A stretch of 64,000 nucleotides of DNA from the NCBI GenBank assembly GCA_947625045.1, contig CANQMW010000017.1, positions 1 through 64,000 on the forward strand, in the 5' to 3' direction. The translations under genes and the position numbers were made by a program. The notes under the pieces are model-generated. The model did not search any database, was not told the origin of the DNA, and saw only the letters and a program-made list of their open reading frames with translations. Shown here piece after piece: positions 50,870 to 59,593 of this stretch (its first letter is position 1; each line of letters starts with the position of its first letter). Source of the DNA: an uncultured Oscillospiraceae bacterium (GTDB lineage: Bacteria > Bacillota > Clostridia > Oscillospirales > Oscillospiraceae).

Positions 50870-52669
50870 ATGCGGAAAGAGCTTGAATATCCCTTTGACA
50901 GCCAGTATCTTCTGCGGAAGAAGAAGTCCCTGCGGCGGGAACTGCTTCAGACGCCGAACCTCATGGAGAAGCATATCGCCATCTTGGGCGGCTCAACGAC
51001 CCACGAAGTGAAGAACATGCTGGAGCTGTTCCTGCTGGACCAGGGCATCAGGCCGGTGTTTTACGAGTCGGAGTACGACCAGTACTGGCAGGATGCCATG
51101 TTCCCCAATGCCGAGCTGGAGGCGCTGGCGCCGGATGTGATATACATCCACACTACCAATCGGAACATCACCGCCTGGCCGGAGCCGGCGGACAGCCCGG
51201 AGCAGGTGGACGCCCTGCTGGAGCAGGAGTACGGCCGCTTCGCCGCCATGTGGGACAAGCTTCGGGAGAGCTATAAATGCCCCATCATCCAGAACAACTT
51301 TGAGTACCCCTTTTTCCGGCTCATGGGCAATCAGGACGCCAGCAACATCCACGGCCGGGTGAACTTCGTGACACGGCTCAACATGAAGTTCTATGAGTAC
51401 GCGCAGACCCACGACGAGTTCTATATCCACGACATCAACTACCTGGCCGGGGACTACGGTCTGGAGAAGTGGGCGGACCAGTTCTTCTGGCACATGTACA
51501 AGTACGCCATGTGCATGGACGCCATCCCCCGGGTGGCCTTCAGCGTGGCGAATATCATAAAGTCGCTGTACGGGAAGAACAAGAAGGCCTTCGCCCTGGA
51601 CCTGGACAACACCCTCTGGGGCGGCATCGTGGGGGACGACGGCGTGGAGAACCTGGCATTGGGTCAGGAGACCTCCATGGGCCAGGCCTACACGGAGTTC
51701 CAGGCTTATCTGAAGGAGCTCAAGAAGCTGGGCATCCTGCTGAACGTGGACTCTAAAAACGACCATGACAACGCTATCGCGGGGCTCAATCACCCGGACG
51801 GGGCCCTGAAACCGGAGGACTTCATCGTCATCAAAGCCAACTGGGACCCCAAGAGCGTGAATCTGGTGCAGATGGCCCAGGAGCTGTCCCTGCTGCCGGA
51901 GAGCTTTGTGTTCGTGGACGACAACCCGGCGGAGCGGGAGATCATCCGCCAGCAGGTGCCGGGCGTGGCCATCCCGCCCATGGAGAAGGTGGAGAACTAC
52001 ATCACCGTCATCGACCGATCCGGGTTCTTTGAACTGACCAAGTTCACCGGGGACGACCTGAAACGGAACGAGCAGTACAAGGAGAACGTGGCCCGGGCCC
52101 AGCTGCAGAGCAGCTTTGCAAACTACGATGACTACCTGCTGAGCCTGGAGATGTCGGCGACCATCAAGCCCTTCGAGTCCATGTACATGGCCCGGATCGC
52201 CCAGCTCACCAACAAGAGCAACCAGTTCAACCTGACCACGAAGCGGTACACCCAGGAGGAGATAGAAAAGACCGCAGCGGACGAGGGGTATGTCACCCTC
52301 TACGGCAAGCTGACGGACAAGTTCGGCGACAACGGCGTGGTGGCGGTCGTCATCGGGAAGATAGAGGACGAGCGGCTGGACATCATCCTGTGGCTGATGA
52401 GCTGCCGGGTCTTAAAGCGGGATATGGAGTACGCCATGATGGATCTGCTGGCGGAGAAATGCCGGGCACAGGGGTTGAAGGAGATACGGGGGTATTACTA
52501 CCCGACCCTGAAAAACGGCATGGTACGGGATTTCTACGCCCTGCAGGGCTTTGAGAAGATATCCGAGGACGAGGAAGGGAACACCGTCTGGAAGCTGGAT
52601 ATCAGCCAGGGATACGAGAAGAAACAGCACGTTATCGCCGTGAACGGGCAGGAAGAGCATGGAGCGTGA
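50870..52669 (+). CDS. FkbH-like HAD-IIIC family protein
   Basis: KKAFALDLDNTLWGGIVGDDGVENLALG; FVFVDDNPAEREIIRQQVPGVAIP; C-terminal GNAT-like region. Confidence 0.92.
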   Translation: MRKELEYPFDSQYLLRKKKSLRRELLQTPNLMEKHIAILGGSTTHEVKNMLELFLLDQGIRPVFYESEYDQYWQDAMFPNAELEALAPDVIYIHTTNRNITAWPEPADSPEQVDALLEQEYGRFAAMWDKLRESYKCPIIQNNFEYPFFRLMGNQDASNIHGRVNFVTRLNMKFYEYAQTHDEFYIHDINYLAGDYGLEKWADQFFWHMYKYAMCMDAIPRVAFSVANIIKSLYGKNKKAFALDLDNTLWGGIVGDDGVENLALGQETSMGQAYTEFQAYLKELKKLGILLNVDSKNDHDNAIAGLNHPDGALKPEDFIVIKANWDPKSVNLVQMAQELSLLPESFVFVDDNPAEREIIRQQVPGVAIPPMEKVENYITVIDRSGFFELTKFTGDDLKRNEQYKENVARAQLQSSFANYDDYLLSLEMSATIKPFESMYMARIAQLTNKSNQFNLTTKRYTQEEIEKTAADEGYVTLYGKLTDKFGDNGVVAVVIGKIEDERLDIILWLMSCRVLKRDMEYAMMDLLAEKCRAQGLKEIRGYYYPTLKNGMVRDFYALQGFEKISEDEEGNTVWKLDISQGYEKKQHVIAVNGQEEHGA

Positions 52670-52671
52670 CG

Positions 52672-57402: not shown

Positions 57403-57412
57403 GGTGACGACG

Positions 57413-59593
57413 ATGAAGAAAAAAAGATTTATCGAGGCGGTCGTATTTCTGGCGCTTGTCATAGGCGTCTTGGCTGCCCTCACAAAGATCACGACCAATT
57501 CAGGAGATTATCGCAACTTCCAGTGGATCCGAGGATTCTATGAGGAGAGAGAGAACTCCCTGGATGCCGTGCTTATTGGAGGGAGTACCGCATATGCCTT
57601 TTGGTGTGCACCTGTAGCCTGGGAGAATTATGGGATCACAGTTTATCCCTTTGCAAATAACAGCCAGCCTCTTGAGGCCGCTGAGTATATCATTAAAGAG
57701 GGCAGGAAAACGCAGCCAGATGCGTTATATATCGTGCTCGTCAATAATCTTTACTTTGATTACTCAGAGGCAGCGATTCATTTTGTGTTGGACTTTTTCC
57801 CGAATACAAATGAGAAGTATCAATTGACTAAAGTACTTCTTGACAATGGTGGATATGCACCTGAAGACAGGCTGGAGTTTTATGTGCCTCTATTCCGCTA
57901 CCATTCACGCTGGAATGAATTAACGAAGCTCGATTTTGATTATGAGCTTAATGGGTTAAAAGGCGGAAGTATATATAGCGGGTATTTGAAGGTCAGCAAT
58001 GACGTTTCCGCCAATTACCACAATACAGATAAACGCGCGGAGATAGATGGACGCATAGAGGAAGCGCTGGAGAATCTGATGGATTACTGCGAGGCGGAAA
58101 AGGTCAATATTCTTTTTGTGACCGAGCCGCTGGCACAACACGATGAGATCGTTGTGGCAGAATATAACACAATAAACGCGATGATAAATGAACGGGGATT
58201 TCCGACGCTAAATATGATGGATGTAATGGATGATATAGGGTTAGATCTGAAAAAGGACTACTATAACAATCATCATGTAAATATCCATGGATCTGTTAAA
58301 ACAACGGACTATCTCAGCCGGTATCTGATAGAGAACTACCATATTGAGGACAAGCGCGGTGACCCGGCATACAGCGATTGGGACGAGGCATACGACAAGT
58401 ATGTAGATATCATTGCACCGTTTGCGGTGGATTTTGAATACGCAGATACACACAGGGCCAACACGCTGCCGGCGCCGGAACTGACGGGAGTCAAAGTTAA
58501 CGGCGGAAATGCCCTCACGCTGACCTGGAAAAAAGTAAACGGCGCAGACGGCTATGGCGTCTACCGCCAAGAGGATAGGTCGGGCTGGCAGCGGATCGCT
58601 GACGTGGGAGCTGACATACTGACTTATCGGGATGAAAGCTGCATACCGACACATACGTATACCTATACGGTTGCGTCCTACAAGGTGGAAGACGGCGAAG
58701 TATACTGGGGAAGCTATGACTTTACAGGGGTAGCCGCTATCGAAGTACCACCCGCACCTGGAACACTGCAGGTTTCCAATGGTGCTGATTGCTTGTCCCT
58801 TTCGTGGGAGAAAGAAGAGGGAGCGGACGGATACCAGATATATAGAAGAGGCGCGTTAACGCGGTGGACGATGATTGCGGATATAAATGGGACGAACTAT
58901 ACGGATAAAGATTTTTTGGAGGGCATACCCTACCAGTACCGTGTCCGCGCATACAGCCTGAATGAGGCGGGCGAAAAGATCGCTGGGCTTTATTCTTATT
59001 GCATCTGGCTCCCTGAAATGACCGGCCCAGAGGTGACGGCAGAGCTCGTTGACGGTGTCCCGACCCTTACATGGCCTGAAATGGTAGGAATGACCAATTA
59101 TACCGTCACACGCAGGACCGACGGCGGAGACTGGGGACAGATCGCGGAACCGCTGGCAGCGGACTGTGTGCAGTTCCGGGATATCACCGCCACAGCGGGA
59201 GAAAGCTATGAATACCAGGTGACTGCCAATATCATCTACGCGAAGCAGACCTATACCTATCCCTCTGAAGCGGTGCAGGTCACGGCAGAGGCTGGTCTGA
59301 CAGCACTGGAGGCCCCGGAACTCCTGTTCTGCGAGCAGGTAGGCAACACGGTGCAGCTGGTGTGGGAGCCCTCTGCCAATGCTACCGCCTATCGCATATA
59401 CCGCATGGCGGAAGGGGAGGATACCTGGACGGTAGTGAATGCCTCCATTGGCGGCAATACCTACCAGGAACGGCCGCCCGCAGCGGGGACGTATACCTAT
59501 GTGCTCCAGCCCCTGCGGACAGAGAGCGGGTGTGTCTATTACGGGACATTTGACGAGAACGCCGCCGTGACCGCGGCATACGGTGTGGGTTGA
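57413..59593 (+). CDS. SGNH-hydrolase-like extracytoplasmic protein with fibronectin type III-like repeats
   Basis: N-terminal TM; LDAVLIGGSTAYAFWCAP; KKDYYNNHHVNIHGSVKTTDYLS (D..H block); four FN3-like units from ~58440. Confidence 0.82.
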   Translation: MKKKRFIEAVVFLALVIGVLAALTKITTNSGDYRNFQWIRGFYEERENSLDAVLIGGSTAYAFWCAPVAWENYGITVYPFANNSQPLEAAEYIIKEGRKTQPDALYIVLVNNLYFDYSEAAIHFVLDFFPNTNEKYQLTKVLLDNGGYAPEDRLEFYVPLFRYHSRWNELTKLDFDYELNGLKGGSIYSGYLKVSNDVSANYHNTDKRAEIDGRIEEALENLMDYCEAEKVNILFVTEPLAQHDEIVVAEYNTINAMINERGFPTLNMMDVMDDIGLDLKKDYYNNHHVNIHGSVKTTDYLSRYLIENYHIEDKRGDPAYSDWDEAYDKYVDIIAPFAVDFEYADTHRANTLPAPELTGVKVNGGNALTLTWKKVNGADGYGVYRQEDRSGWQRIADVGADILTYRDESCIPTHTYTYTVASYKVEDGEVYWGSYDFTGVAAIEVPPAPGTLQVSNGADCLSLSWEKEEGADGYQIYRRGALTRWTMIADINGTNYTDKDFLEGIPYQYRVRAYSLNEAGEKIAGLYSYCIWLPEMTGPEVTAELVDGVPTLTWPEMVGMTNYTVTRRTDGGDWGQIAEPLAADCVQFRDITATAGESYEYQVTANIIYAKQTYTYPSEAVQVTAEAGLTALEAPELLFCEQVGNTVQLVWEPSANATAYRIYRMAEGEDTWTVVNASIGGNTYQERPPAAGTYTYVLQPLRTESGCVYYGTFDENAAVTAAYGVG

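Follow-up and report, generated by a model that had tools for sequence, protein, structure and literature searches.

Organisation of the operon

The 64,000-nt stretch of DNA analysed here (the window) lies on contig CANQMW010000017.1 of an uncultured Oscillospiraceae bacterium. At positions 50870-59593 it carries eight open reading frames (ORFs), all on the + strand, which appear to form an envelope acylation operon in which an FkbH protein and its own acyl carrier protein (ACP) would supply an MBOAT acyltransferase and an SGNH protein. The first gene (50870..52669) encodes a HAD-IIIC phosphatase/acyltransferase of the FkbH type, whose predicted role is to charge the ACP with a glyceryl unit derived from 1,3-bisphosphoglycerate; it is assigned by its motifs and by TIGR01686 (283 bits compared to a cutoff of 146.65). 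It is followed by a transketolase in two halves. The N half, TK_N (52666..53499; Transketolase_N, 149 bits), holds the thiamine pyrophosphate (TPP)/Mg domain, and the C half, TK_C (53503..54423), holds the pyrimidine domain (Transket_pyr, 123 bits) and the C-terminal domain (Transketolase_C, 69 bits); both assignments agree with alignments, and the nearest solved structures are the chains of a split transketolase, 6yak for TK_N and 6yaj for TK_C. Downstream are a MaoC-type hydratase/dehydratase (54420..54848; PF01575, 54 bits), the ACP (54870..55112), an SDR reductase (55119..55853; PF13561, 121 bits), a DltB-like MBOAT acyltransferase with a C-terminal motif discussed below (55861..57402; PF03062, 53 bits; DltB chains, 82 bits), and a membrane-anchored SGNH acyltransferase with a DltD-like fold and C-terminal FN3-type repeats (57404..59593; fn3, 34 bits). 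The ACP has no Pfam match but is matched by ACP models at 5e-11 (PRK12449) and contains the phosphopantetheine site DSF. The genes overlap by 4 nt at FkbH/TK_N and at TK_C/MaoC, and the remaining gaps between them are 1-21 nt, so the compact one-strand arrangement and the protein families named in the initial annotation are confirmed by the ORFs and the family matches. The terminator that it placed at the end of the operon was likewise recovered by folding, as an intrinsic terminator (59714..59757, + strand): a hairpin at 59714-59750 with a free energy of -28.4 kcal/mol (z -5.1) is followed by the U-rich tract UUUUCCUGUUU. A simple promoter/terminator scan overlooked this hairpin because its loop is too long.

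Family searches with the eight operon proteins found no ketosynthase, adenylation domain, thioesterase or lipoyl domain. The earlier statement that a ketosynthase, an A-domain ligase and DltA are lacking therefore holds for the operon, although not for the genome, which has a DltA-like ligase on another contig (C7, see below). A phosphopantetheinyl transferase is also encoded in the genome. The closest named relatives of the locus are found in Oscillospiraceae bins from rabbit gut (L071 and L072), and a gut-dwelling member of this group is accordingly the most likely source of the window.

The FkbH-ACP-MBOAT-SGNH core

Conservation was assessed in 120 further loci with a related FkbH, of which the same order contributed 40 and named genomes 80; together with the window this gives n=121. 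The FkbH motif DLDNTLW (the DxDxT motif) and Cys512 are kept in 96-100% of the 121 proteins. An ACP lies near FkbH in 112 of the 121 loci, almost always as the next gene, and Ser39 of its DSF site is invariant (112/112 aligned ACPs), which bears out the phosphopantetheine site read earlier from the single sequence. The residue after this serine (Phe or Leu) was considered as a marker of acyl type and dropped, as it is common to loci with a transketolase, loci with a methyltransferase and many loci with MaoC. When the set is restricted to the 91 loci whose flanks reach 5 kb or more on either side, and an MBOAT gene is counted only if it has the same orientation and lies no more than 9 kb away, an ACP is present in 87/91, an MBOAT in 72/91, and an MBOAT together with an SGNH-type protein in 68/91. 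The SGNH-type partners come from several families, including GDSL, DHHW, AlgX-like and DltD-like proteins. Outside the Bacillota, the pSymB replicon of Sinorhizobium meliloti carries, in the vicinity of capsule export genes, an MBOAT, an SGNH-like protein, an ACP and FkbH (L245:3405-8440), and this species would be a tractable model for the core. Its SGNH-like protein is annotated as a TonB-dependent receptor yet reads like an SGNH protein. A Rhodobacteraceae plasmid carries an ACP, FkbH, an MBOAT, a probable SGNH protein and a VOC protein. Since the same core recurs in Bacillota and in Alphaproteobacteria, the conserved unit is FkbH-ACP-MBOAT-SGNH. The expectation that the operon genes are conserved together is correct for this core but not for the full set of eight, in which MaoC+SDR and the transketolase are exchangeable.

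Two observations on individual loci are added here. In Subdoligranulum variabile (L246; OY725877.1), a record of 267 kb that is catalogued as a plasmid has the genes FkbH-ACP-MaoC-SDR, with no MBOAT match inside the stretch examined. The structural model of a 333-aa partner encoded upstream in type B loci was not used because its predicted local distance difference test (pLDDT) score is 56.

The transfer step is well supported. In the MBOAT, the catalytic histidine positions His289 and His346 are conserved in 96-97% of 120 proteins, and the window protein ends with FIYEQF. The pattern FxYxxF forms the last six residues in 110/115 MBOAT relatives and occurs anywhere in the last 45 residues in 13 of 1330 other proteins. 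The MBOAT of S. meliloti ends with FLYQGF. In PatA, an MBOAT, the tyrosine of the protein's own C-terminal FxYxxF is acylated and the SGNH partner then takes the group over, while in Dlt the motif lies on a separate protein, DltX (PMC12148441). Whether the fourth residue of the hexapeptide is polar or aromatic was considered as a marker of ACP dependence; the association is suggestive but not clean, a polar residue being found in 25/34 MBOATs encoded just downstream of an ACP compared to 37/76 others. In the SGNH domain (approximately residues 1-345) the catalytic Ser61 and His291, together with Asp285, are invariant. The model of this protein has a pLDDT of 81, and its top fold matches are DltD (E 2e-4, probability 1.0), with PatB ranking lower, although the global template modelling scores of the DltD matches are low (0.33-0.39).

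The operon appears to work like Dlt (DltABCDX), the system for D-alanylation of teichoic acids, without being a member of it. Both have an MBOAT, an SGNH protein of the DltD fold, the FxYxxF motif and teichoic-acid-type genes nearby, and both would use a carrier-protein thioester as the donor. The differences are that the window operon contains no DltA (AMP-binding domain), the acyl group being built instead by FkbH and tailoring enzymes, that its MBOAT scores 123 bits against the DltB model TIGR04091, below the cutoff of 375, and that the motif of DltX is fused to the MBOAT C-terminus; on these three grounds we do not count the operon as Dlt. The 1-21 nt gaps leave no room for a separate DltX inside the operon (ORFs <60 aa elsewhere were not searched). 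PatA/PatB, which O-acetylate peptidoglycan, likewise combine an MBOAT ending in FxYxxF with a separate SGNH protein. Apart from Dlt, however, MBOAT-SGNH pathways, including pairs of the PatA/PatB type, are described as using acyl-CoA and no carrier protein (PMC12148441), whereas the window operon encodes both an ACP and its loading enzyme. An FkbH-ACP pair beside an MBOAT and an SGNH protein would depart from the view that only acyl-CoA is used outside Dlt.

Other FkbH-ACP cassettes also pair FkbH with its own ACP and a glycerate-derived unit. Compared with those that make methoxymalonyl-ACP (FkbGHIJK) and tetronate glyceryl-ACP (tetronomycin, RK-682, agglomerin), which have no transketolase and feed a polyketide synthase or FabH, the product in the window would go to a membrane acyltransferase. 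None of the eight operon genes encodes the partners of the methoxymalonyl pathway (an acyl-CoA dehydrogenase-type enzyme, a hydroxyacyl dehydrogenase and an O-methyltransferase), and the FabH-like condensing enzyme of the tetronate cassette is also missing from the operon. One surface glycan that bears glyceric acid is encoded at a locus with a HAD-IIIC protein and ACPs; no MBOAT/SGNH pair is known to act in it. Such a glycan, acylated with glyceric acid (PMC3068675), offers a parallel to the glyceryl group predicted here. Searches of open-access papers gave no description of an FkbH-ACP-MBOAT-SGNH system, which is weak evidence of novelty, and from its sequences we regard the core as a new variant of MBOAT-SGNH envelope acylation, putatively supplied by the FkbH-ACP pair.

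Tailoring modules and the transketolase

The genes that would build the acyl group differ among the FkbH loci, and some loci carry none. A VOC protein resembling methylmalonyl-CoA epimerase is found in 37 loci; in Lachnospiraceae its gene often lies on the opposite strand beside FkbH-ACP, yet is constantly linked to them (e.g., L110:3896-4294 (-)). The cultured Kineothrix alysoides has the genes FkbH-ACP-VOC-MBOAT. In L135 a methyltransferase gene is placed between FkbH and ACP. MaoC and SDR occur without a transketolase in 14 loci. The combination of MaoC, SDR and transketolase in the gene order of the window is found, apart from the window itself, in L072, in L073 and in a Dorea metagenome-assembled genome where it is split over L125 and L240, and in L141 and L150 MaoC and the transketolase are accompanied by an aldo-keto reductase that replaces the SDR. 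Most FkbH relatives have neither MaoC+SDR nor a transketolase. MaoC (19 loci) and VOC (37 loci) never occur together, which would be explained if MaoC destroys the glyceryl C2 centre on which a VOC epimerase would act. In contrast, every FkbH locus with a transketolase also has MaoC (for L125 this includes L240 of the same genome, by inferred joining of the two contigs).

On a tree of 120 FkbH proteins the transketolase changes state ~5 times and MaoC ~10 times, and the transketolase is found with three different FkbH lineages. These modules have therefore often been gained, lost or exchanged, and neither can be regarded as a fixed part of the operon. MaoC+SDR and the transketolase are interchangeable add-ons to a conserved core, and the family, with its several interchangeable tailoring sets, spans gut Clostridia and Alphaproteobacteria. 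Because related operons replace the MaoC, transketolase and SDR genes by VOC or methyltransferase genes, we read the family as a modular route for varied glycolysis-derived acyl groups.

The tailoring enzymes of the window have their catalytic residues. Asp35 and His40 of MaoC are intact and invariant in 19/19 MaoC proteins; the SDR has Ser140, Tyr154 and Lys158, of which Tyr and Lys are invariant in 18/18. Glyceryl loading onto an ACP by FkbH is established biochemically in tetronate pathways (PMC4979870). By analogy, the first FkbH product here should be glyceryl-ACP, which MaoC would convert to pyruvyl-ACP and the SDR then to lactyl-ACP. The proposed route to the lactate starter of bryostatin-type synthases reportedly consists of FkbH, a dehydratase and a ketoreductase, and a lactyl group made by these three activities is plausible as known logic. 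The view in the initial annotation that known pathways leave the acyl group unexplained was too broad, given that glyceryl-ACP formation by FkbH is known and the lactyl logic plausible, and what lacks clear precedent in the acyl pathway is only the transketolase step.

The residues of the transketolase pair are numbered here as in what we take to be the E. coli TktA scheme. In the window TK_C, Glu411 is kept while the sugar-phosphate residues Arg358 and His461 and the stereocontrol residue Asp469 are replaced. A survey of the 120 nearest TK_C relatives in a large protein collection (clusters at 59% identity or more) gave the same picture: the TPP-activating Glu411 and His473 are kept in 120/120, whereas His461 is Gly in 120/120, Asp469 is Leu in 120/120, and Arg358 is Gln or Asn in 117/120. 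TK_N has the TPP/Mg motif GDGE...N, and every FkbH-linked copy carries Glu in place of His100. TPP chemistry thus appears to be retained and sugar-phosphate binding altered. Contig C21 of the same genome encodes a canonical pair in which Arg358, His461 and Asp469 are all present. On both grounds we reject a housekeeping role for the window transketolase, in line with the view that it does not act in central metabolism. The split transketolase of Carboxydothermus hydrogenoformans (6yaj/6yak) also consists of two chains, but its sugar-phosphate residues are lost in the window pair. NapB/NapD and DinU/DinS are two-component transketolases, proposed in the naphthyridinomycin and dnacin clusters, that would pass a C2 unit to a dedicated ACP (PMC7570522), and the two-chain AziC5/AziC6 extends an aldehyde by two carbons in azinomycin biosynthesis (PMC9570651), the last being likened to the window pair by description. 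These systems are partial precedents.

Acceptor, proposed route and alternatives

Downstream of the operon, still on the + strand, are genes for a DUF4422 protein that is a probable glycosyltransferase (60229..61044; PF14393), a LicD-family phosphotransferase (61037..61813; PF04991), an IspD/TarI-type cytidylyltransferase for a CDP-polyol (61837..62556; PF01128), an extended SDR paired with IspD as it also is in L073 (62570..63598; PF01370), and, crossing the window end, the first part of a TagF/TarL-like poly(polyol phosphate) polymerase (63595..64000; PF04464). The contig extends 3.5 kb past this end, and the full polymerase gene is L195:3596-4984 (PF04464, 219 bits). In L073, from another family and genus, IspD (53% identity) and the extended SDR (62%) lie directly upstream of the same gene order, with a TagF relative (39%) ~6 kb further upstream. 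The TagF-like, IspD, LicD and SDR neighbours of the window operon, some of which have relatives beside the operon in L073, make a teichoic-acid-like polyol-phosphate polymer the likely acceptor.

The same genome has a second locus of this kind on contig C7 (L190; G000:C7:23000-42900), where LicD, TagF, IspD and SDR genes adjoin a paralogous MBOAT/SGNH pair. Its SGNH-FN3 protein is 52% identical to that of the window and its MBOAT, which ends with FIYERF, 34%. The greater similarity of the SGNH proteins would fit two systems that modify the same kind of acceptor but draw on different acyl donors. After the C7 MBOAT comes a DltA-like adenylation enzyme, which scores 335 bits with the DltA model against a cutoff of 476, and further genes encode a transketolase pair, three SDRs, LuxE, LuxC, a second AMP-binding enzyme, an ACP and a thioesterase.

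Upstream of the operon, positions 50353-50733 encode a fragment of an ABC transporter ATPase with 78-81% identity over ~58 aa to intact ATPases of L071 and L072. These lie near the operon there, the L072 copy adjoining a probable ABC-2 permease, and the fragment is likely a decayed polymer exporter. At 41932-48353, genes for GH88, KduI-like, SDR and TIM-barrel proteins share one strand and probably serve the use of unsaturated uronates.

In the pathway that we propose, a short hydroxyacyl thioester is built on the ACP of the operon, and its acyl group is then moved outside the cell and attached to a teichoic-acid-like polymer. FkbH would form glyceryl-ACP from 1,3-bisphosphoglycerate, as expected from its family, and MaoC would remove water to give pyruvyl-ACP. 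The modified transketolase could then add a C2 unit to the ACP-bound ketone, in the manner of acetolactate synthase acting on pyruvate, and the SDR would reduce the new ketone to a branched hydroxyacyl group; the same genes without the transketolase would give lactyl-ACP. Finally, the MBOAT would move the acyl group from the ACP to the tyrosine of FIYEQF, and the SGNH protein would esterify the polymer, a step strongly supported by the motif, the fold and the gene linkage. We consider the loading and transfer steps, together with tailoring on the ACP by MaoC and SDR, to be probable. The suggestion that an acyl group built by FkbH on an ACP passes through the MBOAT/SGNH pair to a surface polymer is supported by the linkage of the genes, the shuttle motif and the teichoic-acid-type neighbours. 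The C2 addition is the weakest step and taken by itself is rather doubtful, and we put forward only tentatively the full proposal that a transketolase-derived thiamine enzyme makes a carbon-carbon bond on an ACP-tethered glycolytic C3 acid and that the resulting branched polyhydroxyacyl group is passed by MBOAT/SGNH to a teichoic-acid-like polymer. A C2 addition to an ACP-bound 2-oxoacyl group does fit the position of the transketolase between FkbH and ACP, the constant presence of MaoC and the exchange of the SDR for another ketone reductase.

Several points weigh against this proposal. The acylation pathway as a whole is read from sequences and models, and the likely acceptor from gene neighbours. 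FkbH could use another phosphorylated C3 acid. With the phosphate ligands of the transketolase apparently lost, its choice of donor becomes questionable. In L071 the FkbH is 90% identical to that of the window (the ACP, MaoC, SDR and MBOAT only 30-48%) and there is no transketolase, which is therefore not needed for the core. The type with a transketolase is also rare, close TK_C relatives at the thresholds used being found in 3/348 genomes at the level of the family Lachnospiraceae and in 1/395 at that of the order, so the sample from which its rules are derived is small. Finally, polysaccharide clusters in L241 and L242 that encode neither FkbH nor an ACP contain split transketolase pairs (44-46% identity), for which a function on sugars is the more natural reading; His461 and Asp469 are lost in these pairs, as they are in the C7 pair. 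A separate sugar role is accordingly possible for the window pair too: the core would transfer plain glyceryl or lactyl while the transketolase produces an unusual sugar that serves that polymer too, the operon being shared only because both activities serve one glycan. The FkbH-MaoC-SDR sets without a transketolase, and the IspD, SDR and LicD genes nearby, which indicate unusual polyol or sugar chemistry, point in this direction. On the other hand, four hosts (those of the window, L072, L073, and L125 with L240) have the transketolase genes embedded in the cassette, after FkbH and before ACP; these genes show 4-nt overlaps in the window, and the enzyme always occurs with MaoC. Only two features distinguish the FkbH-linked transketolases from the L241 and L242 pairs, namely that Arg358 is lost and that Glu replaces His100; both also separate them from the canonical pairs. 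L241 and L242, whose neighbours look like radical SAM proteins, retain both residues. We judge the separate sugar role to be possible though somewhat unlikely.

The other two alternatives are much less probable. Direct loading of glycolyl onto the ACP by the transketolase, with FkbH minor or separate, would resemble what is proposed for NapB/NapD and DinU/DinS, and the window transketolase and ACP do share one operon. NapD and DinS (~750 aa) are said to have extra domains that oxidise the C2 unit. The window operon has no lipoyl or E2 domain, FkbH anchors the family, and most relatives with an ACP have no transketolase; with the oxidising domain lacking, we consider this kind of loading very unlikely. 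It is equally hard to believe that the operon serves to make a small molecule for secretion, or a lipid, and not to modify a wall polymer. Polyketide and tetronate pathways are where FkbH-ACP cassettes are best known (PMC4979870), but the operon encodes neither a ketosynthase nor an adenylation domain, and no thioesterase or FabH-like enzyme either, an MBOAT and SGNH protein with the FxYxxF shuttle are a known arrangement for envelope polymers, and polymer synthesis genes adjoin the operon in two hosts.

If the proposed acylation pathway is correct, glyceryl, O-methylglyceryl, lactyl and larger hydroxyacyl esters are predicted on the surface polymers of commensal bacteria, a setting in which acylation affects charge, the binding of phages and recognition by the host. 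The version of the pathway with a transketolase may contain new enzymology, and the window pair would then offer an opportunity to test whether a transketolase has been recruited to carrier-protein chemistry.

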